A DNA stretch of 35,369 bases from Eubacteriales bacterium (GTDB lineage Bacteria; Bacillota; Clostridia; Lachnospirales; Lachnospiraceae), in NCBI GenBank assembly GCA_030524175.1, contig JAUNHC010000050.1, forward strand, positions 1 to 35,369, read 5' to 3'. This document shows, piece by piece, positions 3,519 through 20,670 of the stretch. Each line of letters opens with the position of its first letter. Within the stretch, counting starts at the first letter, position 1. Below the pieces are notes generated by a model that was not told the origin of the DNA, made no database searches, and worked only from the letters and a program-made list of their open reading frames with translations. The position numbers and the translations under genes were made by a program.

Positions 3519-3558
3519 ATCTGTCACCTCATACCTTCTTTATTTTACATTGGATTTA

Positions 3559-4518: not shown

Positions 4519-4522
4519 ATTC

Positions 4523-6025: not shown

Positions 6026-6129
6026 TTCAATTCCCCCTTCCTCTAAATTCCGTTTCACACATATTTTTTAACAAAGGAAATTTAATACAACTTCCTGAAT
6101 CCCTCATTCACAAGGAATTTATATAGTTT

Positions 6130-6180
6130 GTGCGCCAATGTGCGGCTGAAAAACAGCTTTCCTCCGCACATTGTGCGCAC
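6130..6180. repeat. Bulged palindromic intergenic repeat, copy 1
   Basis: Arms GTGCGCCAATGTGCGGCTG and its near complement enclose AAAAA. The right arm carries an extra AGGAAAG-type bulge (minus-strand view) and one bulged A. A second copy at 26743-26792 has the same architecture. Here it sits between the binding-protein stop (6194) and the ATPase, where such hairpins often stabilise the upstream mRNA or reduce read-through. Confidence 0.8.
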
Positions 6181-6193
6181 CTTCAGGCTTTAT

Positions 6194-7144
6194 TTATTTT
6201 TCCGGAAGCATTTCCTCAAGATTGTCGATGGTTACAGGAACAAGCTCTCTGTAAACATTCTGATCCATTTCTTTGCCTTCTGCACATTCCATGGACAGAT
6301 CATACACAGCGTCACCACATGCATATGCATTACCTGTGATGGCAACTACCATACGGTTGAACTCACCGTTCTGCATGGAAGCCACAGATTCGTCAGTAAG
6401 GTCGGTAGAGAAGATTCCCACGTCATCCGGAACCTCACTTCCGTAAGTTCCTTTCAGAGCTTCGTTTGCACCTGCAGCTCCGCCGCCGCCGATACAGCAT
6501 ACAACTTTTACATCAGGATTTGCCTGAAGGATAGTCTCCATGGCATTCAGGCCTTCTGTGGTATCAATTGCCGGCTGATTTGCCACAACAGTTGCGTTTG
6601 GTGCTTTTTCCTTCAATGCATCAAGGATACCGTTTTCTCTTTCCAGAAGAATAGGTGTCTGAGGATATCCAAGAACTGCAACTTCACAGGTACCGTCTTC
6701 AAATTTCTCATTGATCCAATCTGCTGCCTGGTTTCCGATTTCAACGCCAAGGTCATAGTTCTTTATGATCCAGTTTACATCTGAGTTTTCCATTTCTTCG
6801 TCCCAGCATACAATCTTGATTCCTGCCTCACGGGCTTCTTTGCAGATTTCTTCGATAGCATCCGGGTCCTGAGGCTGTACGATGATCAGGTCAGTCCCTG
6901 CTGTGATGAAGTTCTCCAGCTGGTCAATCTGTGTGTTAGCATTTTCTTTACACTCAACAACAGTAACCTCGTTGCCGTCCTCCTGTGCACGCTTCTGGAT
7001 CTGTTCTGCCTGCTGTGCCCATACCTGATTGCTTAACGTCTGGACTGCAAGACCGATTTTTAAGTCTGCTGCTGATGCCGATACTGTTGTAAGTCCCATT
7101 ACCATTATTGCTGCCATTAATCCTGCTACTGCTTTTCTCTTCAT
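6194..7144 (-). CDS. Sugar-binding protein of the RbsB family, non-lipoprotein signal peptide
   Basis: 316-aa periplasmic-binding-protein-like receptor (class I, ribose/galactose type) delivering substrate to the RbsAC-type importer. N-terminus: Lys/Arg start, a hydrophobic core at about residues 6-20 and an ASA-A signal peptidase I site near residue 24. There is no Cys in the signal region, so the usual Gram-positive lipid anchor is missing. The mature part opens LKIGLAVQTLSNQVWAQQ, a typical ligand-contact strand. The start ATG 7144 follows AGGAGG by 7 nt. It lies downstream of the dehydrogenase, with two tandem hairpins (7183-7218) between them. Confidence 0.9.
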   Translation of the reverse strand: MKRKAVAGLMAAIMVMGLTTVSASAADLKIGLAVQTLSNQVWAQQAEQIQKRAQEDGNEVTVVECKENANTQIDQLENFITAGTDLIIVQPQDPDAIEEICKEAREAGIKIVCWDEEMENSDVNWIIKNYDLGVEIGNQAADWINEKFEDGTCEVAVLGYPQTPILLERENGILDALKEKAPNATVVANQPAIDTTEGLNAMETILQANPDVKVVCCIGGGGAAGANEALKGTYGSEVPDDVGIFSTDLTDESVASMQNGEFNRMVVAITGNAYACGDAVYDLSMECAEGKEMDQNVYRELVPVTIDNLEEMLPEK

Positions 7145-7182
7145 TTTGTTTCCTCCTGTTTTTGGAATTTGTAGGTGACGGG

Positions 7183-7218
7183 TTGGCTTTGCCAATCCGG
7201 GCAAACAGCTTTGCCGGG
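7183..7218 (-). promoter_or_regulatory. Tandem hairpins between dehydrogenase and binding-protein genes
   Basis: A perfect small hairpin (TTGGC-TTT-GCCAA, 7183-7195) is followed by a 9-bp one-mismatch stem (CCGGGCAAA / TTTGCCGGG, 7197-7218). There is no U-run after either on the minus strand. They may mark an mRNA-processing or stabilising point that raises binding-protein expression. No function can be proved from the sequence. Confidence 0.4.
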
Positions 7219-7298
7219 CAGGGCCTTTGTTTTTCTGATTTACCCTGGGGCTTCACTGTTTTTATTTGAACAGCATGCGCTGTCAACATCTTTTTCTA

Positions 7299-8345
7299 TT
7301 AGTCCACATCTCCGTTGGGCAGAATCACAAACTTTCCTTTTGCTCTCTTCTTTGGATCGCTCAGGACTTCTGTCAGACCCTCCAAAGGTTCTTTACCGCC
7401 CAGCATAGTGGTCACATCGATACGGTGTGCATTGATAAGTTCAACTGCACGCCCCATATCATAAGGACTGCAATACGAACCTTTAATGGTCAGCTCTTTC
7501 TGGAATACCTGGTAGGTTTTCAGGCTGATGGCAGAATCTACGGCTGTCACAGCGAATAAAACGACTGTGCCTTTTCTGTCTGCAATCTCTATGGCCTCTT
7601 CGGAAGTGCTCTTAAGCCCGCAAGTCTCAATAACTACCTGGACATGTTCAATTCCGTTAGCCAGAAGTGTTTCTTTTACATTCTGTTCCAGAGGATTGAT
7701 TGTAAGGCTTGCCCCAAGTTCCATTGCCACCTTGCGTTTCTCTTCCACCGGTTCTACCAGCACAACCTTGCTGGCTCCTTTCAGTCTTGCAAGCTGCAGA
7801 AGAAGAAGTCCGATCATTCCGCCGCCGTAGACCACCACATTATCACTTACCTTGATATCACTGCGGTCAGCGCCGTTGATACAGCAGGCCAGAGGCTCTG
7901 CCATTGCTCCTTCAATAAAGGTGACATCGTCTGCCAGGTGATGGACCAGCTTTGCTTTCACTTTGCAGTACTGTGAAAAACCACCGTCAATGTTTGTCCC
8001 TATAGCACCCATATGCTCACAGTGTCCCATCATCCCGGATGCACAGTAATAACATTCATTACAGTTATCTGCCGGGTCCACGCACACCCGGTCACCAGCC
8101 TTGCAGTTTGTAACCCCGCTTCCTGTTTCTACGATCACGCCGGAAAATTCATGTCCCTGGATAAGCGGCGGCACTGTTGTAGTGGAGCCCTGGTCTCCTT
8201 CATAAATATGTAAGTCGGATCCGCATACCCCGCAGGCCATAACTTTAATCAGAACTTCTCCCGGACCTGCCTTGGGTATGTCCCGTTCCTCCACACGTAT
8301 ATCACACTTTCCATGAAAAACTGCACTCATCATTTTCGCCATCAT
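7299..8345 (-). CDS. Zinc-dependent MDR dehydrogenase, polyol/threonine dehydrogenase type
   Basis: 348-aa NAD(P)-linked zinc dehydrogenase, first gene of the rbs-like unit. Catalytic zinc ligands are Cys41 (GVCGSDLH) and His65-Glu66 (GHEFSG). Structural zinc cysteines are 95, 98, 101 and 109. The nucleotide motif GGGMIG is at 174-179, and the second-strand acidic residue is Glu198. It differs clearly from the 2469-3518 dehydrogenase, so the unit has two different oxidation steps or two alternative substrates. Starts at 8345 and 8342 are both possible, AGAGGA lying 5 or 8 nt upstream. Annotation as L-threonine 3-dehydrogenase is a possible alternative, but the transporter context favours a polyol or sugar. 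Confidence 0.85.
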   Translation of the reverse strand: MMAKMMSAVFHGKCDIRVEERDIPKAGPGEVLIKVMACGVCGSDLHIYEGDQGSTTTVPPLIQGHEFSGVIVETGSGVTNCKAGDRVCVDPADNCNECYYCASGMMGHCEHMGAIGTNIDGGFSQYCKVKAKLVHHLADDVTFIEGAMAEPLACCINGADRSDIKVSDNVVVYGGGMIGLLLLQLARLKGASKVVLVEPVEEKRKVAMELGASLTINPLEQNVKETLLANGIEHVQVVIETCGLKSTSEEAIEIADRKGTVVLFAVTAVDSAISLKTYQVFQKELTIKGSYCSPYDMGRAVELINAHRIDVTTMLGGKEPLEGLTEVLSDPKKRAKGKFVILPNGDVD

Positions 8346-8388
8346 TCATGTCCTCTTTTCGTTTCTTAATGTCTCTCTTAAAGACTTT

Positions 8389-8415
8389 TTAAATATCTTT
8401 TAAAATCATATTTAA
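8389..8415. promoter_or_regulatory. Candidate operator at the start of the rbs-like unit
   Basis: Inverted repeat TTAAATAT - 11 nt - ATATTTAA immediately after the -10 box, covering the predicted transcription start (about 8409). Its position suits repression, perhaps by the adjacent ROK protein. The arms are AT-rich, so chance cannot be excluded. Confidence 0.4.
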
Positions 8416-8444
8416 TTTATACCACACTCTCAGTCTCTTGTAAA
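8416..8444 (-). promoter_or_regulatory. Promoter of the dehydrogenase-rbs-like unit
   Basis: Minus-strand TTTACA, 17-nt spacer, TATAAA. It lies just downstream of the ROK gene terminator and about 70 nt before the first start codon, so the five-gene unit is expressed independently of the kinase/ROK unit. Confidence 0.8.
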
Positions 8445-8446
8445 GA

Positions 8447-8497
8447 GAAAAAATAAAAAAGCCGTCATTTTGTATAACCTCTACAAAAATGACAGCT
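8447..8497 (-). terminator. Terminator of the kinase-ROK unit
   Basis: A long stem (arms from AGCTGTCATTTTTGTA with one mismatch and one bulge) with a 7-nt loop, followed on the minus strand by TTTTTTATTTTTT. Position and U-run are typical of an intrinsic terminator. Confidence 0.9.
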
Positions 8498-8585
8498 TTC
8501 ATTTATCTATATTTCCAATAACCTTTATGTCTGACCCAATAGCTCTAAGTGAAATTTTCCCACACTCTTCCCGTTACGGCAAGCT

Positions 8586-9707
8586 TCAAATCTCTGATAA
8601 ATACTTTTCAATGAACACACCTGCCGCACCTATAGCGGATGCTTCGTATTTCAGAATAGCTGGCTTTATCATATCAAACTTAGCAATATAATGGTCGATC
8701 TTCTCAACACGTTTCTCTAATTCTTCAATATAAGGACCGATAAACTGCCCCAGGTATCCTCCTATGATCACTTCCATATCAAATGAAGTAATTAGATTAT
8801 GAATCGCTAATGCCATAGAATCGAGATATTCTTCCCAAACCCTGACGCACACTTCATCTTTCCCGGACAATCTTCTGAAAAATTCCTGAAGATTACCGTC
8901 TGTATGCTCTGACAAAAGGTCTGTGGAACAGTAAGAGTTTATGCACCCTATTCTGCCGCAGTAGCATTTCTTCCCTCCTGGTATCAGCGTCATATGACCG
9001 AACTCTCCTGCCCTTCTTGTCTTTCCGTAGAAAGGTTTCCCGTCAATCATAATGGAACCGCCCACAGAAGGGCTGACAAAAAAGTAAACCGTATTATCCA
9101 ATGATCCCCGTCTCTTGATTTCTGCACGTCCGGCGCTGTTGGCATCGTTTTCCAGGTATACGGGAAAAGGAAACCAGTCCTTGACAATATCATAGAGATG
9201 ATAGCTGATCCTCATCTCCTCGTGCATCCCGTTAATTCCCGTTCCTGTCTCGTCAATGATCGCCGGAATTGAAATACCAAGCCCGAGAATTGATTCCTTG
9301 TCAATACCGCTCTCATCAATAGAACGGCAGATGATCTGCCGCAGCTCTTCATAAGAGTCTGCTTCATCATGAATCCTTATATTCACCCTCTTAGAATACA
9401 GCAGACCCATGGACAAGTCCAGTACCACTATATTCACATGGGTTCTTGTGATATCCACGCCTACCGCAACCTTTGCATCCCTGATACACCGGTAGCCGAT
9501 AGATTTCCTTCCCCCAATAGACTCCATGGAGCCTTCTTCCTGCACAAGCCCCATTGCCTGAAGATCATTCATACATTGAGTCACTGTAGGAATACTCAGG
9601 CGCAGAGCGGCAGCGGCGCTGCTTTTGGAAATTTGTCCTGTCTTCAGCATATACATAAGAAGATTATTTCTGTTTACTCTTTTCACTTGGATATTATTTA
9701 AGCCCAT
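8586..9707 (-). CDS. ROK-family transcriptional repressor (XylR/NagC type)
   Basis: 373-aa sugar-responsive DNA-binding protein. Residues about 12-62 form a winged helix-turn-helix (KSSAAAALRLSIPTVTQCMNDL). From residue 80 comes the ROK kinase-like fold, starting VAVGVDITRTHVNIVVLDL. The ROK zinc site is complete: His238 and Cys248, Cys250, Cys255 (CYCGRIGC). The ENDAN motif is at 186-190. Extra N-terminal DNA-binding residues separate it from plain ROK glucokinases. ATG 9707 is 7 nt after GGGGTGG. It is co-transcribed behind the FGGY kinase and probably represses this unit and the rbs-like unit in response to the imported sugar or its phosphate. Confidence 0.9.
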   Translation of the reverse strand: MGLNNIQVKRVNRNNLLMYMLKTGQISKSSAAAALRLSIPTVTQCMNDLQAMGLVQEEGSMESIGGRKSIGYRCIRDAKVAVGVDITRTHVNIVVLDLSMGLLYSKRVNIRIHDEADSYEELRQIICRSIDESGIDKESILGLGISIPAIIDETGTGINGMHEEMRISYHLYDIVKDWFPFPVYLENDANSAGRAEIKRRGSLDNTVYFFVSPSVGGSIMIDGKPFYGKTRRAGEFGHMTLIPGGKKCYCGRIGCINSYCSTDLLSEHTDGNLQEFFRRLSGKDEVCVRVWEEYLDSMALAIHNLITSFDMEVIIGGYLGQFIGPYIEELEKRVEKIDHYIAKFDMIKPAILKYEASAIGAAGVFIEKYLSEI

Positions 9708-9759
9708 CGATCAACCACCCCTACCTGAAATATTATTACTGTATTGCTTTCCTGCCGGC

Positions 9760-9785
9760 AACAGTTCAGGCAAGCCTGAACTGTT
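9760..9785. repeat. 26-nt palindrome, copy 2 (perfect arms)
   Basis: Two perfect 12-bp arms (AACAGTTCAGGC / GCCTGAACTGTT) around AA. It overlaps the last two bases of the kinase TAA stop codon (9784-9785). A near-identical copy is at 1950-1975. There is no U-run, so it is not a simple terminator. It lies in the 76-nt gap between kinase and ROK genes. Confidence 0.8.
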
Positions 9786-11451
9786 ACTGCTCCTGTTTCA
9801 TATCACGAAGTTCTTTAAGTAAGTCACGACTATCTGCGCCCATTATATCACTTAATGCACAATAAATGTCATACAATTTTGTATATTTTTCCATTCTTTT
9901 TTTGTCAGGAAGATATACCTGTTCTTTGACACTGCTCATACTTCTGACTGCTGTCCAGTAGGAGTCATAACCACCCGCTGTCTCCCCTGCTGCCAGGGCT
10001 GCGTAAACGGCAGACCCCAGCGCTGCGGCCTGGTCGCTTGCTGCTATCTTAATCTTTTTCCCCAGCACATCAGCGTAAATCTGCATCAGCATTTCGTTTT
10101 TCATAGAAATGCCGCCGCTGGCAATCACTTCTTCAATATCCAGCCCGCTTTGTTCATATAAATCCACAATGCGTTTTGTCCCAAAGGCAGTAGCTTCTAT
10201 GAGAGCCCGGTAAATTTCTTCCGGCTTCGTACTCAAGGTCAGGCCGAACAAAATACCTGTCAGGCTGCCGTCCACAAAAGGTGTCTTATTTCCATTCCAC
10301 CAGTCAAGAGCCAGGACCCCGCTCTCTCCGGGTTCCAGTTTCTCCGCCTTCCGGCTCAAAAGGGTATGAATGTTGATTCCCTCTTTTTCCGCTTCTTTTC
10401 TATAATCTTCGGGAACCATCCTGTCTGTAAACCATCCAAAAAGATCACCCACAGATGCAAGCCCTGACTCAAGTGCATAATATCCCGGAACAATGGCGTC
10501 CTTCACACCTCCGCACACTCCCTTTTCCGAGTACGGCTTTTCACTGAGAGCCACCATCACGCTGGAAGTTCCCAGGACCATCATCATCTGCTTTACATCA
10601 GAGAGACAGCTACCCGGAACGCCTGCATGAGAATCAATAATGGCCGGTGCCACCTCAATACCGGCAGTAAGCCCAAGCCGGTCTGCCCATTCCTCTGACA
10701 ATCTTCCTATGGATTCCCCAATGCCGCATATCTCTCCCGGCATCTTTTCCGCTGCAAAATCCTCCAGTTCCGGATGAAGCTGCTTCAGAAATTCTCTGTC
10801 CACGTAACCTTCCCGGCTGTTCCACCATGCCTTATACCCTGCCATAGAGCAGCTTCTTTTATGGGAGCCTGTCAGCACTCTTGTCACCCAGTCTCCTGCT
10901 TCCAGAATCTCATCTGCACAGTGGTAAATCTCCGGATCTTCCTCCAGAATTTCCATCACCTTGGGGATCAGCAGTTCAGGGGATATTTTTCCCCCAAATC
11001 TTGGACTGTCTTCAAGCCCCAGACTCTCGATCAGCTCATTCACCTTATCCGCCTGTTTCTGGGCACCGTGATGCTTCCACAGCTTTGCATAAGCATTTCT
11101 TCTGTGTGCAAACTCCTCCTTCTCACAAAGAGGAACCCCGTTTTTATCTACCGGCAGCATAGTACAGGAGGTAAAATCAATGCCTATGCCGATGATACTT
11201 TTCTTATCGACTCCGCTCTCCCGGAGAAGTGCAGGAACTACCTCGTCCAACACCTCCAGATAATCCCCTGGGTATTCCAGACACCACGCATCAGGGAGAG
11301 CTGTGATGCCGTCCGGGAGAAAACGATCCATAACACCGTGAGAATATTCCTTCACCCCACTTGCCAGCACCTGCCCGTCCCGGCAGCGGACCAGAACGCC
11401 CCGTCCCGATAAAGTACCGTAATCCAATCCTATTGTATACTTATCTTCCAT
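9784..11451 (-). CDS. FGGY-family sugar kinase, ribulokinase (AraB) type
   Basis: 555-aa carbohydrate kinase phosphorylating a ketose or polyol with ATP in the cytoplasm. The length and N-terminal GLDYGTLSGRGVLV (8-21) match L-ribulokinase AraB rather than the shorter xylulokinases. Further marks are GIGIDFTSCTMLPVD, the MMVLGTSSVMVAL phosphate loop, and the C-terminal FGGY signature region VIASGGISMKNEMLMQIYADVLGKKI. RBS AAGGA is 9 nt before ATG. No araA or araD is adjacent, so a D-/L-ribulose or a related ketopentose made by the nearby polyol dehydrogenases is a likelier substrate than arabinose-derived ribulose. That is inference. Confidence 0.87.
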   Translation of the reverse strand: MEDKYTIGLDYGTLSGRGVLVRCRDGQVLASGVKEYSHGVMDRFLPDGITALPDAWCLEYPGDYLEVLDEVVPALLRESGVDKKSIIGIGIDFTSCTMLPVDKNGVPLCEKEEFAHRRNAYAKLWKHHGAQKQADKVNELIESLGLEDSPRFGGKISPELLIPKVMEILEEDPEIYHCADEILEAGDWVTRVLTGSHKRSCSMAGYKAWWNSREGYVDREFLKQLHPELEDFAAEKMPGEICGIGESIGRLSEEWADRLGLTAGIEVAPAIIDSHAGVPGSCLSDVKQMMMVLGTSSVMVALSEKPYSEKGVCGGVKDAIVPGYYALESGLASVGDLFGWFTDRMVPEDYRKEAEKEGINIHTLLSRKAEKLEPGESGVLALDWWNGNKTPFVDGSLTGILFGLTLSTKPEEIYRALIEATAFGTKRIVDLYEQSGLDIEEVIASGGISMKNEMLMQIYADVLGKKIKIAASDQAAALGSAVYAALAAGETAGGYDSYWTAVRSMSSVKEQVYLPDKKRMEKYTKLYDIYCALSDIMGADSRDLLKELRDMKQEQ

Positions 11452-11743: not shown

Positions 11744-12655
11744 TTAAATCCCTCCGTTGATTTTTCTTTTCTGAACCGTTTCTGAAGGCAGATACTCCTG
11801 AGCCTTTCCGGCTGCCCCCAGAAGTTCTATCCATTGGATCAGTTCATCCCTCCAACTGTCATTGATCACCTGCCAGATATCATAAATCTTTCCACTGTCA
11901 AGATCAGCAGTGCGCACCGCATGTAAGGATGCCTTAAACAGATCCGTCCCTACATTTACCTTATTGATTCCCATACGGCTGGCCTTCTGCAGATTTTCCT
12001 TGCCGGTCCCGCTTCCTCCGTGTAAAACAAGGGGGAAATTGTCTGTGACCGTTTTAATTTTCTCTAAACGTTCAAAATCAAGATGAGGCTTCCCTTTATA
12101 CTGTCCGTGCGCCGTCCCCACAGAAACCGCCAGGCAGTCAATGCCTGTTTCCTGTATAAACCTTTTCGCCTCATGGGGGTCCGTCAATACCATATCACTT
12201 TTATTGTCATATTTCTCACCGTCCCCCACGTGTCCAAGCTCAGCCTCAACAGAAACTCCTGCTGCATGGGCAACTTCAGTGAGTAGTTTTACCTGCCTTA
12301 CATTTTCATCATAAGGAAGGCTGGACCGGTCAACCATGATTGAAGTAAACCCTGCACGAAAACAGGGCATCACTTCCCGGAGACAGGATTTAAGATCAGC
12401 CCAGCGGCTCCCGCCATGATCCAGATTAATGGCTATAGGTACGGACGACTCTTCCGCCAGGCGCCGGGTAAGTCCGCCAAGAAAAACAATGTCCGGATGA
12501 ATGGGAAATGCAATATCTATAATAAGGGGAGAGTTGCATTTTTCCGCTGCCTCGATCACAGCTCTGGCAGTCAGTTCATTCTGGATATTCGGCGCCGGAA
12601 TTGCAAAATTTTCTTTATTTGCAGTTTCTAAAAGATGTTTCATTGTATACAGCAT
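11744..12655 (-). CDS. Class II ketose-bisphosphate aldolase (GatY/KbaY/Fba type), 1
   Basis: 303-aa zinc aldolase that splits a ketose 1,6-bisphosphate into dihydroxyacetone phosphate and an aldehyde or aldehyde-phosphate. Asp79-His80 (NLDHG), Glu139 (VEAELG), His183 (GTAHG) and His212 (LHGGSG) are the expected catalytic and zinc residues. VNVGTDL (233-239) is the phosphate loop. RBS GGGAGG is 9 nt before ATG. It is second in a two-gene unit behind an ADP-dependent-kinase-like protein, with a hairpin and T-run (12687-12720) between. The stereochemistry (fructose, tagatose or other) cannot be told from the sequence. Confidence 0.9.
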   Translation of the reverse strand: MLYTMKHLLETANKENFAIPAPNIQNELTARAVIEAAEKCNSPLIIDIAFPIHPDIVFLGGLTRRLAEESSVPIAINLDHGGSRWADLKSCLREVMPCFRAGFTSIMVDRSSLPYDENVRQVKLLTEVAHAAGVSVEAELGHVGDGEKYDNKSDMVLTDPHEAKRFIQETGIDCLAVSVGTAHGQYKGKPHLDFERLEKIKTVTDNFPLVLHGGSGTGKENLQKASRMGINKVNVGTDLFKASLHAVRTADLDSGKIYDIWQVINDSWRDELIQWIELLGAAGKAQEYLPSETVQKRKINGGI

Positions 12656-12686
12656 ATTTATATGCCTCCCTCTGAATAATTTAAAA

Positions 12687-12720
12687 AACGCAGCTATTCA
12701 GTGCTAACTCCTGAATAGTC
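12687..12720 (-). terminator. Intra-operon hairpin with T-run (attenuator-like)
   Basis: Eight-bp stem (CTATTCAG / CTGAATAG) with a 9-nt loop. On the minus strand it is followed by CTGCG and TTTTTT, lying between the kinase stop and the aldolase start. It may cause partial termination and lower aldolase expression relative to kinase. Confidence 0.45.
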
Positions 12721-12743
12721 ACAGAATATTTCCTTTTAAAAAG

Positions 12744-13928
12744 CTACTCAAAACAATATTTATATAAAAATCCTCCCACAAAGCTGTCCCCCAGCCCCAC
12801 TGTCGTAGGAGCATCAACCCTGATATCCGGAGCAGGCAGACATCTCACAGGAAGGTCAAAAGCTGTCATCATCTTTTTACAGAACACCTTTGATTCTTTT
12901 TGCACAAGAAGCCTGCCTGACGCCTCAATCCCAATTTTATCAACAGTTCCCCGCCAATACCTTGTTGACGCTGCTAGCATACCATATTCCAGAGCCTTCA
13001 TGATATCCTGTGACTGTTCTCCAATCGCCAGCACCCAGAAACAAGTATGAACAATGATCGTGGCGGACGGAAGTTTTTCCCTGGCAAGCATCAGCCCCTC
13101 CATTACATCCTTCTCACTTAACAGATCAATTTTTCTCCCTGCAAGCGTCTGAAACTCATCTTCGTTCATACTGTATATATCAATGACCTGCCTAAGCTCA
13201 TCTCTTACCATATCCTCCAGCTTTCCATTGGAGAAGCATGCGTGTTCATAAAATATAAGAGGTTTATCCTTATGAAAACAGCTCAATTCTTCTTTCACTT
13301 CCATCAGCCGCATGGACAATATATCAGGATTGACAATAAGGTCAAATCCGGACAGCAAGACGGCCCTCATTCCCCGTGCCCTTATAAAAAATTCTCTGCT
13401 TAAAGGCATTTGCGCACATGCGGTATCTCCGGAATAAATGACACGGTTCTCTCTGGGAGCAATAATCTCAATGTCATTTGCTTTAACATAAGCATTCTTT
13501 GGAAACTGTATTGCTATATGCGGAAAACAGCACTTGAACTTATCGCCGCCCACCCAACTGATATTCTTAGGCAGCAGCTTGTGTGTTTCATCGTTGACAG
13601 AAACCAAATGGACCAGTGCACTTCCTCCCAGAGCAGAAATCACCTCAGCAGCACGTAAGTTAGTGCCGCCCAATGCTACACGGTATGCTGTTCCCCTTAT
13701 AAACTCATCTATTACCTCAGGTCTTTCCGTCAATAAGCCGCAGCCTGTGCCTTCCCTCATATGGAAAAGAACAGAAGCTAAAAGGTCCTTCATATTCTTG
13801 ATATCTTTCGTGTCTTTAATATCCTCCTTGCATAGTCCCACACCTCTTATTAAGTTCTCCAGGTGTTGTGAATCCCATTGGATTTCATAGTCAACTGTAT
13901 TGGAAAATCCAAGTGCTGCTTTTTCCAT
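12744..13928 (-). CDS. ADP-dependent phosphofructokinase/glucokinase family sugar kinase
   Basis: 394-aa protein with the landmarks of the ADP-dependent kinase family (ADP-PFK/GK fold of the ribokinase superfamily), best known from archaea and less from bacteria. Near the sugar-binding strand is GGTNLRAAEVISALGG (87-102). LLSGFD (191-196), FYEHA (227-231) and NEDE (255-258) correspond to the family's SGL, E and NExE positions. The C-terminal VGLGDSF (377-383) provides the anion hole and catalytic base Asp381. RBS GGGGG lies 11 nt before ATG. It precedes a class II aldolase, so it likely makes the bisphosphate that the aldolase cleaves. Phosphoryl donor and sugar are not proven. Confidence 0.78.
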   Translation of the reverse strand: MEKAALGFSNTVDYEIQWDSQHLENLIRGVGLCKEDIKDTKDIKNMKDLLASVLFHMREGTGCGLLTERPEVIDEFIRGTAYRVALGGTNLRAAEVISALGGSALVHLVSVNDETHKLLPKNISWVGGDKFKCCFPHIAIQFPKNAYVKANDIEIIAPRENRVIYSGDTACAQMPLSREFFIRARGMRAVLLSGFDLIVNPDILSMRLMEVKEELSCFHKDKPLIFYEHACFSNGKLEDMVRDELRQVIDIYSMNEDEFQTLAGRKIDLLSEKDVMEGLMLAREKLPSATIIVHTCFWVLAIGEQSQDIMKALEYGMLAASTRYWRGTVDKIGIEASGRLLVQKESKVFCKKMMTAFDLPVRCLPAPDIRVDAPTTVGLGDSFVGGFLYKYCFE

Positions 13929-14056
13929 GCACTCTTCTACCCCCTTGCTCTTTTATAATAAAATTTGCTGGTATGCCCTGAGTACAGGCCGTAACAGCAA
14001 TAAAAATTCCAGAAATTGTAAATCTCCTGTTTTCTCCATTTGTGTTGCTCTGAAAT

Positions 14057-14085
14057 TTGTTTCATGATAAACTACTATTTATGAT
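14057..14085 (+). promoter_or_regulatory. Promoter of the RpiR-family gene
   Basis: TTGTTT, 17-nt spacer, TATGAT, about 85 nt before ATG 14170. Two related 9-mers, TTCATGATA (14061-14069) and TTTATGATA (14078-14086), overlap the promoter and are possible binding sites. I found no convincing minus-strand promoter for the divergent kinase in 13929-14169. Confidence 0.55.
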
Positions 14086-14169
14086 ACCAGGGTCAAAATA
14101 CAATACATGTCCGCATGGAATTGGATAACTTTCAGCCCCGTAAAACACGAGAAAGCAGGATGGCTTACC

Positions 14170-15018
14170 ATGGAAAACGGTTCATTATTTGCTAAAATAC
14201 GTTCTAAATACAGCGAGATGACAAGTGTGGAGCGGATCATTGCCGATTACTTTTTAAACCATTCTCCGTCAGAAAAACTCACCCCCGGACAAATTGCCGC
14301 CGCACTCTTTGTATCCAAGGCTTCCCTTTCCCGATTTGCACAGAAGCTTGGCTTTGACGGTTTCCGGGAATTTATGTACCAGTATAAACGGGATTTAAAT
14401 GCCAATAGCCAAATGGACTGCCTCCACCCATCAGACCGCAAGGTCTGTGAAGACTATGGATTTATTTTAAAGGAAGCTCAAAAAAATATTGACAACCGCT
14501 CACTGGAAAAAGCTGTATCCCTCATTCACAACAGCAGCAGGATCCTCATTTACGGGGATGGCCTTTCCGGTTATGCGGCAGGGGAATTTATGATACGGTT
14601 TAAGCGCCTTGGTTTTCCGGTTGAAGCGTATACAAATGACTTCATGATGCAGACCAATTCAGCTATTGTCCAGTCATCCACTCTGGTGGTAGGAATCTCC
14701 TTAAGCGGTACAACAAAAAACACCATGCAGGGTCTGAAAAAAGCACACATTAACGGTGCCAAAACATTGCTGATCACTTCCCGCAGGGCCAGAGATTACA
14801 AATTTGACGCTGTCCTTTATGCTGCCTCTCTGCCGGATATGAATACAGGCATGTTCATTTCACCTCAAATCCCTATTCTCCTGATCATCGATCTGCTGTT
14901 TAACCGTATCGTGGATATGGATTCCGGCACTTATATTGCAAATTATCAGGACACCCTTAACGCATTAAATCATAACATAAATGAACTTCCGCCTTTTAAC
15001 AAAGGCAAACATACATAA
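14170..15018 (+). CDS. RpiR/MurR-family transcriptional regulator (HTH + SIS)
   Basis: 282-aa sugar-phosphate-responsive regulator. Residues about 1-78 form the RpiR-type helix-turn-helix (LTPGQIAAALFVSKASLSRFAQKLGFDGFREF). About 110-245 form a SIS phosphosugar-binding domain (RILIYGDGLSGYAAGEF and VVGISLSGTTKNTMQGLKKA). ATG 14170 follows AGGATGG by 6 nt. The longer frame from 14107 lacks such a site. It is divergent from the ADP-kinase/aldolase unit and convergent, with only 2 nt between stop codons, with the ABC/aldolase unit. It is therefore the likely regulator of both, sensing a phosphorylated intermediate. Confidence 0.9.
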   Translation: MENGSLFAKIRSKYSEMTSVERIIADYFLNHSPSEKLTPGQIAAALFVSKASLSRFAQKLGFDGFREFMYQYKRDLNANSQMDCLHPSDRKVCEDYGFILKEAQKNIDNRSLEKAVSLIHNSSRILIYGDGLSGYAAGEFMIRFKRLGFPVEAYTNDFMMQTNSAIVQSSTLVVGISLSGTTKNTMQGLKKAHINGAKTLLITSRRARDYKFDAVLYAASLPDMNTGMFISPQIPILLIIDLLFNRIVDMDSGTYIANYQDTLNALNHNINELPPFNKGKHT

Positions 15019-15020
15019 CA

Positions 15021-15989
15021 TTATCGGTAAAGATGCCCCTTTCCATCTGCACCAAACCACTTGATCCTCTCTGCAGCAACTGCCTGCATTGCCTGGATAC
15101 ATGCCGGTTCGATTTCATTAGGTTCTCTCAGATTGTCATCCTGGAGAACCTCTTTCATTTTGCTGTAATAAGCCTTTTTTATATCACTGGAAATATTTAT
15201 TTTTGTCACACCGTTTTGAGCTGCTTCTGTAAGCTCTTCTTTTGGATTTCCTGAACCTCCGTGGAGAACAAGGAACGTTTCAAGGCCTGCTTCTTTTATT
15301 GCCTTACGGATTGCTTTCAGCCTGTCAATCTGAATATGGGGAAGGAATCCTTTAGGATATAAACCATGGCTTGTACCTATTCCTACTGCAAGACAGTCGA
15401 TACCTGTTTCCCTGATATAGCAAACTGCCTCTTCCGGCTCTGTAAAATGCATCCCTTCTGTAACTTTACCAGTACATTCGTCAATGCTCCCTATATTCCC
15501 CAATTCACCTTCCACAGAAATATTGCCGCAGTGTAATGACGGTGCATAATGCCACTGTGCCCTGTCTTCCTGCATCCGTGGATCAAAGCTATCCTGAACT
15601 GAAGTGTATGTGATCGCTGCATGGGCTGCTTCTGCCACTTTCCTGGTAATTACAACATTCTCTTCATAAGGTAAAGAAGATGCATCGATCATAACTGACG
15701 TAAATCCGGCTCTGACCGCAGTCATAATATTCTCATAGGATGCACCATGATCCAGATGAATGCACACAGGAATCTTTGATTCCGAAGCCCTGGCTCTGAA
15801 AGCTGCAATAACATCAGTGCCTATATGTTTTAGTTCATTCGGATGTATCTCTATGATCACCGGTGCATTCAGTCTCTCTGATATGTCCATGATCCCATTA
15901 AACATCCCATAGCTGCTGATATTAAAAGCCGGAACTGCAAACCCGTTCTCATCTGCCTTTTCGAGCAGTTCCTTCATATTGTACAGCAT
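15021..15989 (-). CDS. Class II ketose-bisphosphate aldolase with a 30-residue insertion, 2
   Basis: 322-aa relative of the 11744-12655 aldolase. The zinc and catalytic set is present: Asp80-His81 (HLDHG), Glu162 (VEGELG), His208 (GTSHG) and His243 (LHGGSG). INISSDI is the phosphate loop. Unlike its neighbour, it has about 30 extra residues (about 126-155, including RAQWHYAPSLHCG) between the AAHA helix end and the SVEGELG strand, close to the active-site mouth. RBS AAGGAGG lies about 8 nt upstream. It is the last gene of the ABC - UroD-like unit, 106 nt after that gene. The different active-site loop suggests a different substrate. Confidence 0.88.
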   Translation of the reverse strand: MLYNMKELLEKADENGFAVPAFNISSYGMFNGIMDISERLNAPVIIEIHPNELKHIGTDVIAAFRARASESKIPVCIHLDHGASYENIMTAVRAGFTSVMIDASSLPYEENVVITRKVAEAAHAAITYTSVQDSFDPRMQEDRAQWHYAPSLHCGNISVEGELGNIGSIDECTGKVTEGMHFTEPEEAVCYIRETGIDCLAVGIGTSHGLYPKGFLPHIQIDRLKAIRKAIKEAGLETFLVLHGGSGNPKEELTEAAQNGVTKINISSDIKKAYYSKMKEVLQDDNLREPNEIEPACIQAMQAVAAERIKWFGADGKGHLYR

Positions 15990-16095
15990 AATTTGTCCTC
16001 CTTTTTTGAAACTTCACAGATATTTTTTGCCGGAAGGACACCCCCTTTTCCAGCCAGATTCCTTTCACTACCCGCATGGTTACTTATTGCTGACC

Positions 16096-17133
16096 TTATT
16101 TTTTCAGCGCGTCTATCAATGCGAAAATGTTTTCATCCGGCACACTGGCATCCAGATCCGGCGCCTGAATAGAAAATCTATCCCAATGACCTTCTGTTTC
16201 TTCCAGTATCTCACCTATTTTCTCTCTGATTTCATCAACTGTTCCAAAATTAAGCAGCTTTGTACTCATAATATACTGGATATGTGCAGTCTTAAATTGT
16301 TCCAACACCGGCCTTATTGAACTCTCATGTCCGATTTCAATATAACTCAGCTTATCCATTGTCCCGTAAATATCTACAAAATCATCAAATCTGCCGCAAT
16401 GATGAAGACCAATGGATCTCCCATGCTTTACACATTGTTCGTATAACTGCCAATCATAAGCAAATACCTTGCTCTTGTAAGTTGGTGCTCCGGCAACAGC
16501 ACAGGTACAATTCATCATAATATGCATAAAGTCAGAATCCAATTCACAGTTTCTTCTAATCTGCTGCTGCAGTACACCGGATACAAAGCCCATGGCTTTT
16601 TTTATCACATCCTCATAATCTTCATCCAGTAAATAACCATAAAACTCTGTTGAACAAATCTGAACCGCCTCATTCAGGATTCCTCTTGTCTTCATCATAG
16701 GCGGTACACTTGTTCCCAGCCTGCGGTTCATATACTCTACCTGACTTTTTACTTCTTTATATGGATAAACACCCCATAAATCCTCCGGAACCTCTAAATC
16801 CATAATCTGCTCGTCCGTCAGTGCTCCAATCCCCATAGGATACTGGTCCACCGGAAAGCGGACTTCCAGACCAAGCATAGACTGATAAAACGTATTGTCA
16901 AAATCAGGCTGGATGACCATTGGCTTCGGATTTTTACAACATGTGCCAGTGTCTTTTCCAAAACGCTGATAATACAATTCTCTCATATTTATATAGGTTT
17001 CAATACGATAATCCGGATCAAAATACATCTTTCTCCCATATTCAATCCCATAGTGCCGATACCACCAAGACGGAAGAAAATTAATAACCGCCTCTTCAAT
17101 TTTCAAATCATGGATCCGCTCACAAAACCACAT
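16096..17133 (-). CDS. Uroporphyrinogen decarboxylase-like (URO-D/MtaA superfamily) protein in a sugar operon
   Basis: 345-aa cytoplasmic TIM-barrel protein of the URO-D/methylcobamide methyltransferase superfamily. The His-x-Cys-Gly zinc-ligand motif of the methyltransferase branch is visible (GLHHCGRFDDF, His244 and Cys246). The C-terminus has the family ending PDENIFALIDALKK, but the distal Cys that normally completes the zinc site is absent: QAPDLDASVP stands where GCG-type sequences occur. There is no corrinoid protein or heme gene nearby. It is 30 nt downstream of the ABC permease and upstream of the aldolase, with GGAGG 9 nt before ATG. A role in processing the imported substrate is inferred. 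The reaction is unknown. Confidence 0.82.
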   Translation of the reverse strand: MWFCERIHDLKIEEAVINFLPSWWYRHYGIEYGRKMYFDPDYRIETYINMRELYYQRFGKDTGTCCKNPKPMVIQPDFDNTFYQSMLGLEVRFPVDQYPMGIGALTDEQIMDLEVPEDLWGVYPYKEVKSQVEYMNRRLGTSVPPMMKTRGILNEAVQICSTEFYGYLLDEDYEDVIKKAMGFVSGVLQQQIRRNCELDSDFMHIMMNCTCAVAGAPTYKSKVFAYDWQLYEQCVKHGRSIGLHHCGRFDDFVDIYGTMDKLSYIEIGHESSIRPVLEQFKTAHIQYIMSTKLLNFGTVDEIREKIGEILEETEGHWDRFSIQAPDLDASVPDENIFALIDALKK

Positions 17134-17163
17134 ACCATCGTTCCTCCGTTTCAGTTTATCCTA

Positions 17164-18003
17164 TCAGCTCTTTATTGCTCCTGCTGAAAGACCTGCGATA
17201 AAATAATTCTGGGCAAAAACAAACAGTATGATGATCGGAATAGATCCCAGGATACTCATGGCCATCATTTCATTCCAACTGTATGTAATCTGCCCCATCA
17301 ACAGCTGGATACCGATGGGAACGGTACGCATTTCTCCGGACTTGGTCAGACACAAGGCAAACAGGTATTCATTCCAGCATTGCAGAAAAGTATAAATGGC
17401 AGTGGCTACAAGCCCCGGTTTCGCTATGGGCACAAGCACACGCCATAGTACACACCAGGTGGAACCTCCGTCAATTGCTACGGCTTCATCCAGATCCTTC
17501 GGCAAAGTATTGATATACCCTGTGATCATTATGGTTGCATAGGGCAGGGTAAATACAAGATATGTGACGATCATTGCCCAGTAAGAATCATAAAGACCGA
17601 ACATAACGAGCATACCGAAATAAGGAATCAATAAGGTTATAGGCGGCACCGCCTGTGTAATGATGATGAATGTATTCAAAGTCTTTTTAGCTTTAAAATC
17701 ATACCGGCTCAATGCATAACCGGCCATAATGGCAACGATCAAAGTAATTCCGGTAGTGACCAGAGCTACAATATAACTGTTCACAAAATACCTCAGCTTT
17801 GTAGTATCCGTGAGCACGCTTGTAAATGCCTCTAAGGTAATATTCCTGGGTATGATCTGCTGCGGCACTGTAAATACTTCTTTATTGGACTTGAACGCGC
17901 AGCTGATCATCCATACAACCGGGAACAAAGCGTAAACAAGCCCTATCAGCAATCCTATTTCTATCAAAAGTTTCGTAAGGCGCATTTTCGTTGATTTCTT
18001 CAT
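17164..18003 (-). CDS. Carbohydrate ABC transporter permease, MalG family
   Basis: 279-aa inner-membrane permease of the CUT1 class with six predicted helices, the first at about residues 10-32. The cytoplasmic EAA loop that docks with the ATPase is LDEAVAIDGGSTWCVLWRVLVP. ATG 18003 is chosen because GGGAG sits 9 nt before it and directly abuts ATG 18012. It is 18 nt after the partner permease. No CUT1 ATPase gene is in the unit, so a shared MsmK/UgpC-type ATPase encoded elsewhere is probably used. Confidence 0.92.
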   Translation of the reverse strand: MKKSTKMRLTKLLIEIGLLIGLVYALFPVVWMISCAFKSNKEVFTVPQQIIPRNITLEAFTSVLTDTTKLRYFVNSYIVALVTTGITLIVAIMAGYALSRYDFKAKKTLNTFIIITQAVPPITLLIPYFGMLVMFGLYDSYWAMIVTYLVFTLPYATIMITGYINTLPKDLDEAVAIDGGSTWCVLWRVLVPIAKPGLVATAIYTFLQCWNEYLFALCLTKSGEMRTVPIGIQLLMGQITYSWNEMMAMSILGSIPIIILFVFAQNYFIAGLSAGAIKS

Positions 18004-18021
18004 ATTTTTCATCTCCCAGTG

Positions 18022-18876
18022 TCAATCCAGGCTGGTTTGCCTCCTTACATAAAAGATAGCTATGACAAGACACAGCATCATCATGATCACAGCACTGGCT
18101 GATGCTGCAGAAAACTGATACGTCTTAAAAGCCAGATTATACGTATACGTCCCCACAGTTTCCGATGAGCCGATGGGGCCGCCCCCTGTTGTTATATAGG
18201 TGAGGGACAGCTGCTGCATAGACCACACAAAATCCAGAAGCATAAGACTGATGAGCACCGGTTTTAAATGAGGTACCGTTATCTTAAAAAACTTCTGAAT
18301 GCTGTTAGCCCCGTCTATACTTGCCGCCTCATAGTATACGTGGGAAATTCCCTGCAGCGCTGCAAGAATACTTATCATATAAAACGGATAAGAACACCAG
18401 ATATTCACAAAGATAACAGCTTTCGCCGCCAGTTCCCTGCTCCCGAACCAGTCAATACTCAGGCCGAAGATAGTATTGATGATACCGCTGTTGTTCAGCA
18501 TAAGACGCCAAAGAATGGCTACAATGGATACAGTAAATGTCCATGGTACAATAAACAAGGCCCTCACCACTCCTCTGAATCTGCTGTTGAGCAAATCTGA
18601 GTTCAGCATCAGTGCAAAGGCAATGCCCAGTATTATATGAAAAAAGAGTGAAACAATGGAAAATTCCAGGGAATTTCCCAAAGCCCTCCAGAACTCACCC
18701 GACTGTATTATTTTTGAAAAATTTTGGAATCCCACAAAATGGGGAGTCGGATTCACGATCACATTATCTTTTACTGAAAAACTGATCACCTGGTAAATAG
18801 GATAAACCAACAGCACACAGAAAATCAAAATAATCGGGAGCAAGTAGAGATATGGTGTGATTTTTCTTCTTTTCAT
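18022..18876 (-). CDS. Carbohydrate ABC transporter permease, MalF family
   Basis: 284-aa CUT1 permease with six predicted helices. It opens KRRKITPYLYLLPIILIFC, and its EAA loop is YEAASIDGANSIQKFFKITVPHLKP (split between helices near residue 190). RBS AAGGGA lies about 6 nt upstream. It pairs with the MalG-type protein to form the channel for the substrate bound by the upstream family-1 binding protein. Confidence 0.92.
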   Translation of the reverse strand: MKRRKITPYLYLLPIILIFCVLLVYPIYQVISFSVKDNVIVNPTPHFVGFQNFSKIIQSGEFWRALGNSLEFSIVSLFFHIILGIAFALMLNSDLLNSRFRGVVRALFIVPWTFTVSIVAILWRLMLNNSGIINTIFGLSIDWFGSRELAAKAVIFVNIWCSYPFYMISILAALQGISHVYYEAASIDGANSIQKFFKITVPHLKPVLISLMLLDFVWSMQQLSLTYITTGGGPIGSSETVGTYTYNLAFKTYQFSAASASAVIMMMLCLVIAIFYVRRQTSLD

Positions 18877-18909
18877 AGCTTCCCTTCTTTCTCATTGAAA
18901 CAGTTAAAG

Positions 18910-18965
18910 GGCAGAGTATTAAACTTCCGGATATTTAAAATCTGCAATGTGCTTAATACTCTGCC
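18910..18965 (-). promoter_or_regulatory. Stable hairpin between binding-protein and permease genes
   Basis: Perfect 13-bp arms (GGCAGAGTATTAA / TTAATACTCTGCC) with a 30-nt loop, 7 nt after the binding-protein stop. Only CTTTAAC follows on the minus strand, so it should terminate partly at most. Such hairpins usually keep binding-protein mRNA in excess over permease mRNA. Confidence 0.7.
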
Positions 18966-18971
18966 GATCCA

Positions 18972-20231
18972 TCATCCTCCGATTATACTGTTCCAGTAGT
19001 CCTGTGCATTTGTAAGTGACTCTGAAATTTCCTGGTCACCGGTAATTGCAAGCTGTGCCTGAATGGTAAGATTCTTCATCAATTCCTCTGCAGACGGCAG
19101 CCCCTGCATCTCATTGATCAGGTAATTATCCTGAACGATTTTGTAAGCATTGGCAAAGGCCTCATCCTCAGATATAACTTCTGATTTGGTATTTCCGGGA
19201 AATGCATTAGCATAACCTGCAAACTGTGTGTTCACTTCCGGGCTTAACAGATAGGATACAAACTCCCATGCTTCCTCCGGATGTTCCGTGTTGGCAGATA
19301 TGCCAAGTCCCCAAGGGGCATACATAACACCGCTTTCGCCTTCCAGTCCGCCTTTAACCGGTACGGCACCCATGGTAAATTCCAGGTCAGGGTTAGAAGC
19401 ACGAAGGGTATTGATAGTTGAACAGGTGGTAAGCATAAATGCTGCATACCCATTGGCAAATGTATCCTGCATATCAGAAGACGTCATGGAAAAAACGCCA
19501 GGATTCATTACGCCTGCATCGTAACATTTTTTAAAGAAGCTTAGCGTATCGGCTGCTGCCTGGTCATCTGCAAAAGCTGCCTTTCCGTCCTCCCCGATCA
19601 TGTATCCCTGGTTAGCCCATAACCAGCTCATAAACTGATCCTGTGAGGAGGAAGGATATGCTTCCGATAGAGCTGTGATCCATCCGTAAACATTATTATC
19701 AGGATCATTGACAGCTTCACAATCTGCAAGGAATTCATCAAAATCACCCGGAAGTTCAGTGATTCCATGCTCCTTCAAAAGCGTCATATTTGCATACATA
19801 TGATAAGAATAAACCACAACAGGAATCATATAGGTGGTTCCTCCCACCTTTACACATGACACATCTTCCGCTGTAAACTTATCCTCTTTTTCTACATAAG
19901 CATCCAGATCAAGGAGTGCGTTCATATTGGACAAGTCATAAATCCAGGTTCCGTCAACACCGCAGATATCTGACATCGTTCCCGTTGCAGCACCTGCAAC
20001 CAAAGCATCATGGGTACTGGAATAAGGATTCGTCACAAGTTTAATTTCAATTTCCGGATACTGTTCTTCAAAGTTCCCGATAATCTCGGCCATCTTTCCC
20101 TCCGGCAGTTCATTTTCCCACCACTGGGCAAATTCCAAAGTTACCTTTTCATTACTCTCTGCCATTACCGTTACCTGGGCTGCATAACAAACCATACTTA
20201 CAGCTAATAAAATACTTAACCCTTTCTTCAT
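18972..20231 (-). CDS. Extracellular carbohydrate-binding protein, family 1 (MalE-like)
   Basis: 419-aa substrate receptor for the CUT1 importer, first gene of the unit. The signal peptide covers residues about 1-24 with VMA-E as the likely cleavage point. A Cys at residue 15 (VSMVC) has Val before it and does not fit a lipobox. The mature protein starts KVTLEFAQWWE and shows family-1 features (PWGLGISANTEHPEEAWEFVSYL near residue 305). RBS AAAGGAG lies 6 nt upstream. The ligand is unknown. Lack of an obvious lipid anchor is unusual for this class in Gram-positive bacteria. Confidence 0.9.
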   Translation of the reverse strand: MKKGLSILLAVSMVCYAAQVTVMAESNEKVTLEFAQWWENELPEGKMAEIIGNFEEQYPEIEIKLVTNPYSSTHDALVAGAATGTMSDICGVDGTWIYDLSNMNALLDLDAYVEKEDKFTAEDVSCVKVGGTTYMIPVVVYSYHMYANMTLLKEHGITELPGDFDEFLADCEAVNDPDNNVYGWITALSEAYPSSSQDQFMSWLWANQGYMIGEDGKAAFADDQAAADTLSFFKKCYDAGVMNPGVFSMTSSDMQDTFANGYAAFMLTTCSTINTLRASNPDLEFTMGAVPVKGGLEGESGVMYAPWGLGISANTEHPEEAWEFVSYLLSPEVNTQFAGYANAFPGNTKSEVISEDEAFANAYKIVQDNYLINEMQGLPSAEELMKNLTIQAQLAITGDQEISESLTNAQDYWNSIIGG

Positions 20232-20469
20232 AAGAATCTCCTTTCATTCTCCTTTGTCTTTTTCTTTTAAACTCTCTGTGACATTCCTTTTAAGCTCACC
20301 AACTTGCCATATTTTAAACCGCCTCCCCAGAGTGCAAAATTTATCCGAAATCAAATAAGACTTCTGCCATTATCTGCGGCAGACGGCTTTTGGCAAGCAG
20401 TCCGGTGTTCGCCCAAACTTTTAGATTAATACCGTCAAATTGTACAATCATTCTGTATTTCATCTTTAT
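20232..20469 (-). promoter_or_regulatory. Long leader of the ABC/UroD/aldolase unit
   Basis: About 235 nt lie between the predicted transcription start and the binding-protein ATG. It holds a 10-bp palindrome ATTGTACAAT (20439-20448) and overlapping hairpins at 20359-20402: CTGCC at 20364-20368 can pair with GGCAG at 20378-20382 or with the arm at 20392-20402. These alternatives could allow attenuation, but no riboswitch class is recognised. Confidence 0.35.
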
Positions 20470-20475
20470 ATACAG

Positions 20476-20504
20476 ATAATAACCCACAACTATTTTGGTT
20501 TCAA
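20476..20504 (-). promoter_or_regulatory. Promoter of the ABC/UroD/aldolase unit
   Basis: Minus-strand TTGAAA, 17-nt spacer, TATTAT. Upstream are a TTGTACAATT-containing inverted repeat (20521-20536) and a cre-like palindrome TTGAAA-N4-TTTCAA (20554-20569). In the latter the arms match catabolite-repression elements but the central CG is one base out of register. Nothing else was recognised in 20505-20670. Confidence 0.7.
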
Positions 20505-20670
20505 CTATCATTTTCCAGTAAATTGTTTGTACAATTCAGTTTTTCACTGAATATTGAAACGTATTTCAAACACGTGATTTGACAAATTTTTCCCAAGAAC
20601 GTAAATACATACATTTCATGATTTCAACTTCATTTCCCGCCGGAAAAATCCTTGTACCAACCGCCCTTAT

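Follow-up and report, generated by a model that had tools for sequence, protein, structure and literature searches.

We analyzed a 35,369-nucleotide stretch of DNA, hereafter the window (contig JAUNHC010000050.1, assembly GCA_030524175.1), from a gut bacterium of the Lachnospiraceae, focusing on a cluster of sugar import and breakdown genes (Table 1). On the minus strand, from position 20231 down to 16096, genes for an extracellular sugar-binding protein, 2 CUT1-type permeases, and a 345-aa protein with the uroporphyrinogen decarboxylase (URO-D) fold follow one another, with a class II aldolase gene (ald2) next. Beyond ald2 lie an RpiR-type regulator gene on the plus strand and, back on the minus strand, genes for a PF04587 kinase (KIN2) and a second class II aldolase (ald1). 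All elements listed in a sequence-only reading of the window, namely, importer, URO-D-like protein, 2 class II aldolases, kinase of the ADP-dependent family, and divergent RpiR regulator, were found. The genome measures 5.95 Mb (completeness 90.7%), and the nearest named relatives at the locus are Blautia. In Blautia schinkii (L077) and a Blautia metagenome-assembled genome (MAG; L078), both also found among the genomes of the window's genus, the order is sugar-binding protein gene-permA-permB-uroD-KIN1-ald2/RpiR/KIN2-ald1, which the window matches gene for gene, KIN1 excepted; in the MAG, a D-lyxose isomerase gene lies behind the cluster. The importer combines 2 permeases with an extracellular binding protein, as in CUT1 systems; the binding protein shows weak kinship to GacH/MalE-type proteins, and the importer cluster contains no ATPase gene. 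CUT1 importers usually have no ATPase gene of their own where the ATPase is shared.

Table 1. Positions of the cluster genes and putative operators in the window.
Feature	Positions	Strand	Remarks
Class II aldolase ald1 (type B1)	11744..12655	-	PF01116 277 bits; 85-87% identity to L077/L078 copies
KIN2, derived Blautia paralogue, sugar kinase of the ADP-dependent PFK/GK family	12744..13928	-	
Palindrome TGAAA-N4-TTTCA, regulator-kinase gap, putative RpiR operator	14051..14064	.	Same place in L077 and L078
RpiR/MurR-type regulator, HTH_6 + SIS, divergent from kinase unit	14107..15018	+	
Class II aldolase ald2 (type A)	15021..15989	-	PF01116 283 bits, alignment, residue tables
106-base gap at KIN1 position of L077/L078	15990..16095	.	
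URO-D-fold protein with HHCG motif	16096..17133	-	
CUT1-type permease B	17164..18012	-	PF00528; relatives' copies beside kinase mostly 53-66% identical
CUT1-type permease A	18022..18876	-	PF00528; copies beside kinase in relatives
Extracellular sugar-binding protein of importer	18972..20231	-	SBP_bac_1 119 bits
Palindrome TGAAA-N4-TTTCA, upstream of importer unit, putative RpiR operator	20555..20568	.	Corresponding place in L077 and L078

By sequence, the window kinase is a member of the ADP-dependent phosphofructokinase/glucokinase (PFK/GK) family: it scores 73.6 bits against PF04587 (cut-off 27) and shows the whole fold of the family, with 71.7 bits against the NCBIfam ADP-glucokinase equivalog, below the cut-off of 387. 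To examine the active site, we tabulated residues in 106 kinases, the window included, at positions transferred by hand from a printed alignment and with roles taken from the available part of PMC7948494. Equivalents of GG, R206, E228, NxxE, and D471 were present in all 106 sequences and that of D36 in 104 (2 gaps), so that the GXGD base, the NXXE motif, and the catalytic Arg206 equivalent occur together throughout. According to the same excerpt, Lys179 and Asn181 bind the 6-phosphate in ADP-phosphofructokinase, and the T. litoralis ADP-glucokinase carries His at the Asn181 position (PMC7948494). His occupies the latter position in 106/106 kinases, as in the glucokinase; the Lys179 position holds Lys in none and Arg in 1, and that of R212 holds Asp in 96 and Arg in 1. 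The 6-phosphate site of ADP-phosphofructokinase (Lys179/Asn181) is thus found in 0 of the 106 kinases, and these residues favor a pocket suited to a free, unphosphorylated sugar.

A quick tree of the kinases, in which the program flagged long branches, placed the KIN2 proteins of the window, L077, and L078 in a clade of their own on a long branch and KIN1 among the Lachnospiraceae kinases. A second Lachnospiraceae group (group 2; 13 of the 106 kinases) was separate with support 100 and is found with the same importer or, alternatively, with an FGGY kinase plus a CUT2 importer. KIN2 is the single PF04587 match in the window's genome, and KIN2 and a close uroD occur in the same 3 of 64 genus genomes, with a distant kinase in 2 more. 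In the 106-base gap we recognized no KIN1 remnant; the significant matches were confined to the edges of the 2 neighboring genes, and the candidate remnant was dropped. The absence of KIN1 from the window's genome is most simply explained by loss.

Residues of the aldolases were compared in 113 proteins of at least 240 aa taken from anywhere in the loci, with 9 shorter matches left out. Best matches divide them into type A, type B with ald1, and a Treponema type, and ald1 (B1) and ald2 (A) are indeed of different types, as anticipated from the sequence. The catalytic Asp and 3 zinc-binding His are kept in 112-113 of the 113 proteins, and both window aldolases, PF01116 members, have all 4. In the Giardia aldolase, R280 and R259 bind fructose-1,6-bisphosphate, as described in the accessible portion of PMC6692403. 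At the R280 (distal-phosphate, DPR) position, Arg is found in 2/113 and Lys in 0/113 aldolases, so that Arg is missing in 111/113; in the window it is absent from ald1 and replaced by Asn in ald2. One of the 2 aldolases keeping Arg280 is canonical and lies approximately 3.6 kb from the kinase gene (L045), and the other approximately 7 kb away (L130). As a control, 30 high-scoring aldolases of relatives, 2 of them from the window's own genome, all carry Arg (17) or Lys (13) at this position. Escherichia coli KbaY keeps the R280 equivalent and E. coli YdjI has no Arg there; ald1 and ald2 match the YdjI kind, that is, PF01116 without the distal-phosphate Arg. Judged by these residues, the cluster aldolases are unlikely to be ketose-bisphosphate enzymes.

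Within the window's genome, 10 of the 14 PF01116 aldolases have neither Arg nor Lys at the R280 position; among the 12 other than ald1 and ald2, one or the other is kept in 4 and lost in 8. Kinase genes within about 3 kb of these 8 encode PfkB (4), FGGY (2), and Dak-type (2) proteins. Kinase adjacency was rejected as a mark of Arg-less aldolases, being nondiscriminating in this genome (8/8 versus 3/4). Two type-B-like aldolases (L206 and L209; typed by eye) stand beside Dak1/Dak2-type kinase genes, which suggests that a given aldolase type is partnered by kinases of different families. In ald2, about 30 extra residues lie between approximately residues 125 and 155; an accident of the DNA was dropped as the explanation, since the stretch has counterparts in L077, L078, and L059, though not in the other aligned aldolases.

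To assess the conservation of the cluster, we searched a family sample of 299 genomes with the kinase, which gave matches in 20, and performed a profile scan of named genomes, which confirmed at least 338 relatives, the best 80 loci of which were used. The kinase is patchy (20/299 family genomes and 5/64 genus genomes), and the family is not rare in bacteria, contrary to what had been assumed for ADP-dependent kinases. To count neighborhoods, we searched the window and 103 further loci (24 in the family sample, window included, and 80 in the named set) with reference proteins by tblastn, because automatic gene calling gave false antisense frames in high-GC loci. The counts are lower bounds, since 6 kb on both sides of the kinase was available in only 16/24 and 58/80 loci. 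Nor are the loci independent of one another: a few genera (Microbacterium, Cellulomonas, and Nonomuraea, among others) are heavily represented in the named set, and at least 1 genome occurs in both sets (the L042 and L093 kinases are identical).

An aldolase gene lies within 3 kb of the kinase gene in 19/24 family-sample and 77/80 named loci, and both permease genes within 8 kb in 16/24 and 72/80. The combination of importer, kinase, and aldolase recurs in Lachnospiraceae, Actinomycetota, Chloroflexota, and Spirochaetota. The typical order in Actinomycetota is DeoR-sugar-binding protein-permA-permB-aldolase-kinase, often with a ManA-like gene next, and that in Chloroflexota is sugar-binding protein-permA-permB-aldolase-kinase; because such minimal operons hold just importer, aldolase, and kinase (with DeoR in Actinomycetota), kinase and aldolase seem to suffice. 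In most Treponema loci, the importer is divergent from a kinase-aldolase-DeoR unit, and Lachnospiraceae loci contain 1 or 2 aldolases and RpiR, some with a D-lyxose isomerase (8/24) or mutarotase (3/24). The sequence-only reading had coupled the kinase to the aldolases and named a neighborhood not conserved in relatives as an outcome that would refute it. The coupling is borne out by the aldolase counts, and the refuting outcome did not arise, since importer, kinase, and aldolase are conserved across relatives; the conservation does not extend to the URO-D-like protein, found near the kinase in just 1/24 and 2/80 loci.

Two Lachnospiraceae kinase loci, L059 (5464-8399) and L047 (about 0.9-3.9 kb), also contain genes for a glycyl-radical enzyme and its activating enzyme; the L059 enzyme matches PF02901/PF01228 and falls below every NCBIfam equivalog cut-off. 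On the short contig L051 (1-9005), the kinase cluster occurs twice in inverted orientation, and the reading frames of one copy are broken; this may be an artefact of the assembly.

The regulator carries HTH_6 (56 bits) and SIS (48 bits) domains, the combination defining RpiR/MurR proteins, and by comparison with relatives its true start may lie approximately 20 codons downstream. Visual inspection revealed a palindrome, TGAAA-N4-TTTCA, in front of both window units, and its occurrence was subsequently tested. The window contains exactly 2 copies (0.15 expected; 1 of 100 shuffles reached 2), as do L077 (0.04 expected) and L078 (0.10 expected), and in all 3 loci one copy precedes the sugar-binding protein gene and the other lies in the regulator-kinase gap. 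Genome-wide, 25 sites occur in 5.95 Mb versus 10 for a reversed control pattern; a regulon list from the pattern alone was rejected, 25 sites being too many. The presence of the palindrome before both units in 3/3 loci upholds their earlier treatment as one regulon and suggests that the RpiR protein, which would bind the palindromes, controls the two together.

The isomerase genes near the kinase offer a hint to the sugar. Representatives of the D-lyxose isomerase and mutarotase families (one each) scored 323 bits against PF07385 and 123 bits against PF01263, and a representative ManA-like protein scored 48.7 bits against TIGR00218, below the cut-off of 116.2. PF07385 genes lie within 10 kb of the kinase in 8/24 and 2/80 loci and ManA-like genes within 6 kb in 0/24 and 33/80, never both in one locus. 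Because the isomerases seen belong to the D-lyxose/D-mannose isomerase family or are ManA-like, they hint at manno- or lyxo-configured aldoses, and hence at fructose- or xylulose-like ketoses, without settling the sugar. An isomerase near the window cluster that could feed the route was sought and none found. In the stretches read around the genome's 2 PF07385 genes (L230 and L231), the palindrome was not found; in the PF07385 locus of B. schinkii (L232), 1 site lies beyond the gene. The L231 gene (G000:C87:40323-40991) is flanked by a binding-protein/permease set and, on the other side, by a large gene resembling, by eye, a GH2 mannosidase, a hint that this isomerase serves mannose.

The URO-D-like protein of the window gave no match to PF01208 up to an E-value of 5, whereas its distant relative L074 scored 37.2 bits (cut-off 23.9) and gave weak scores with MtbA/MtaA models. 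In fold, the window protein resembles both UROD and a Methanosarcina methyltransferase, consistent with its assignment to the URO-D fold. Its H244-x-C246 motif is invariant (13/13 aligned). The zinc site of MtaA consists of H-x-C plus a later Cys as third ligand; such a Cys was not recognized here. The uroD genes of L077 and L078 encode proteins 78-79% identical to that of the window and, as in the window, lie between the importer and the kinase/aldolase genes, and close uroD genes are found in 3/64 genus genomes, with a distant relative in 3 more. Given its scarcity near the kinase, the protein does not hold up as the core step it had been taken for and would rather be a Blautia-specific addition of unproved role. 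In 7 of the 10 loci L065-L074, a URO-D-like protein of approximately 345 aa (HHCG) is paired with one of approximately 380 aa (HSCG), and in L067 the pair adjoins CUT1-type permease genes.

The sequences themselves show which genes are present, the palindrome common to both units, the conservation of the cluster, the protein families, and the active-site residues; from these we infer the steps of a route. The CUT1-type ATP-binding cassette (ABC) importer would bring in a sugar that is, or becomes, a free ketose, in relatives by way of the D-lyxose/D-mannose isomerase or ManA-like protein. The PFK/GK-family kinase would phosphorylate this ketose once, at C1, with ADP as the probable, unproven donor, and a class II zinc aldolase that has no site for a distal phosphate would split the ketose-1-phosphate into dihydroxyacetone phosphate (DHAP), which would enter glycolysis, and a neutral aldehyde. 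The 2 aldolase types may serve 2 ketose configurations or 2 sugars, the RpiR protein may sense a sugar phosphate, and the URO-D-fold protein may remove a substituent such as a methyl group from a modified sugar that is taken up. This sequence from ketose to DHAP and aldehyde is favored because the kinase pocket suits a free sugar, the aldolases lack the far-phosphate site, minimal operons contain one recognized kinase, and aldose isomerases are optional. The outline proposed earlier, import, phosphorylation, and aldol cleavage, agrees with the gene content and coupling; its ketose-bisphosphate cleavage is unlikely, as the residues favor a ketose-1-phosphate and single phosphorylation. Overall, we consider an RpiR-controlled regulon for CUT1 import and one-kinase retro-aldol breakdown of a ketose to be somewhat better than an even prospect.

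Several observations weigh against this proposal. In 5/24 and 3/80 loci, the 3 kb to either side of the kinase contain no aldolase gene, and the one-kinase scheme does not account for those group 2 clusters in which a CUT2 importer is found instead, together with an FGGY kinase. Kinase positions N32/N34 vary within the family, and Glu90, a sugar contact present in 97/106 kinases, is Gly in window-type kinases (3/3), on account of which the window kinase may have a substrate unlike the rest. The window's cluster contains no isomerase gene, the genome's 2 PF07385 genes being on other contigs. The 30 control aldolases were the best-scoring matches given as loci and are hence canonical, and 3 of the 4 Arg/Lys-keeping aldolases of the window's genome likewise have a gene in their vicinity that looks, by eye, like a kinase gene.

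If a phosphofructokinase-like kinase acted on a ketose-6-phosphate made elsewhere, the aldolases would split ketose-1,6-bisphosphates, a reading in line with the presence of ADP-phosphofructokinases in the kinase family, the many bisphosphate enzymes among PF01116 aldolases, and the second (FGGY) kinase of some group 2 clusters. We regard it as unlikely in view of the 106 kinases, which share the missing Lys179 and the His for Asn181 and nearly all lack Arg at the R212 position, of the aldolase Arg280 lost in 111/113, and of minimal operons without a labeled second kinase, although only reference proteins were searched for there. A different emphasis, on an O-methylated or otherwise substituted sugar for which the URO-D-fold protein, as an MtaA/MtbA-type methyltransferase or a decarboxylase, provides the essential first step, draws on the position of uroD, which is the same in L077, L078, and the window, on the methyltransferase-like fold with its invariant HxC motif, and on the weak MtbA/MtaA scores of L074. 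The rarity of the gene near the kinase, the unrecognized third Cys ligand, and the lack of any match to a corrinoid-binding family in a scan confined to 30 window proteins render it rather improbable.

More remote is a variant of the sulfo-Embden-Meyerhof-Parnas (sulfo-EMP2) pathway, in which the ketose would be sulfofructose and the aldehyde set free sulfolactaldehyde. The PF01116 aldolase of sulfo-EMP2 acts on sulfofructose-1-phosphate, as stated in the available text of PMC9594981, and the logic is common to both, with one kinase and no distal phosphate; yet PF02952, PF00365, and a sulfoquinovosidase-like glycosidase are absent from the Pfam matches of the 30 window proteins (the relatives' clusters were not scanned), and we judge such a route very unlikely. 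Least credible, to a degree that we give it hardly any weight, is a housekeeping kinase placed there by chance and unconnected to the aldolases: the family does include archaeal glycolytic enzymes, but its patchy distribution, the conserved linkage to aldolase and importer, and the shared palindrome speak against it.

The one-kinase retro-aldol route that we prefer has known parallels. The RefSeq names of E. coli YdjH and YdjI are L-glycero-L-galacto-octuluronate kinase and its 1-phosphate aldolase; as here, a single kinase gene stands beside a PF01116-type aldolase without the DPR arginine, and DHAP release is expected. YdjH belongs to the PfkB family and transport in the YdjH/YdjI system is of the MFS type, whereas the present clusters combine an ABC importer with a PF04587 kinase. 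In sulfo-EMP2, as far as the excerpt of PMC9594981 goes, SqvD is PF02952, SqiK is PF00365, and SqiA is a PF01116 aldolase; an initial view of SqvD as D-lyxose-isomerase-like proved wrong and was rejected. The resemblance lies in an isomerase, one kinase yielding a ketose-1-phosphate, and a PF01116 aldolase releasing DHAP, and the difference in the PF04587 kinase and the PF07385 or ManA-like isomerase of the relatives. Phosphorylation of a ketose at C1 would also be shared with the ketohexokinase of humans and haloarchaea, which acts on fructose; it is an ATP-linked enzyme of the ribokinase/pfkB superfamily, and humans cleave fructose-1-phosphate directly, whereas haloarchaea use a second phosphorylation and a class I aldolase (PMC11519228, in its accessible sections). 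Compared with archaeal ADP-dependent glucokinases and phosphofructokinases, the cluster kinases are shorter (about 394-444 aa aligned), are tied to importer and aldolase genes, and have a partly changed sugar pocket, and compared with the fructose/tagatose bisphosphate class II aldolases KbaY, GatY, and Fba, the cluster aldolases share PF01116, the zinc ligands, and the catalytic Asp but have lost the distal-phosphate Arg. The single-kinase, DHAP-releasing logic of the route would thus already be known from YdjH/YdjI and sulfo-EMP2, and what appears new is the non-orthologous kinase and isomerase.

Among the open PMC papers listed, we found neither a described role for the bacterial branch of the ADP-dependent sugar kinases nor an account of the cluster. 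A gene set conserved across phyla can now be assigned to this branch, and vague annotations ("ADP-dependent phosphofructokinase/glucokinase" and "fructose-bisphosphate aldolase") give way to a prediction of free ketose, ketose-1-phosphate, and DHAP plus a neutral aldehyde; the Arg280 rule would allow other "bisphosphate" aldolase annotations to be questioned. More tentatively, and with considerable doubt, an ADP-consuming ketose-1-kinase ("ADP-ketohexokinase") clade and far-phosphate-less zinc aldolases might form a previously undescribed glycolytic side-branch across phyla, to which Blautia would have added a second, diverged kinase copy (Glu90 to Gly) and a URO-D-fold enzyme unmasking a modified sugar.

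The window genes from position 11451 downward (ribulokinase, ROK, CUT2 importer, and 2 alcohol dehydrogenases) lie outside the block common with both Blautia loci. This region (2469-11451), with 2 zinc alcohol dehydrogenases, a CUT2-type ABC importer, a ROK protein, and a ribulokinase scoring above its NCBIfam cut-off, perhaps encodes a pentitol/pentulose route.

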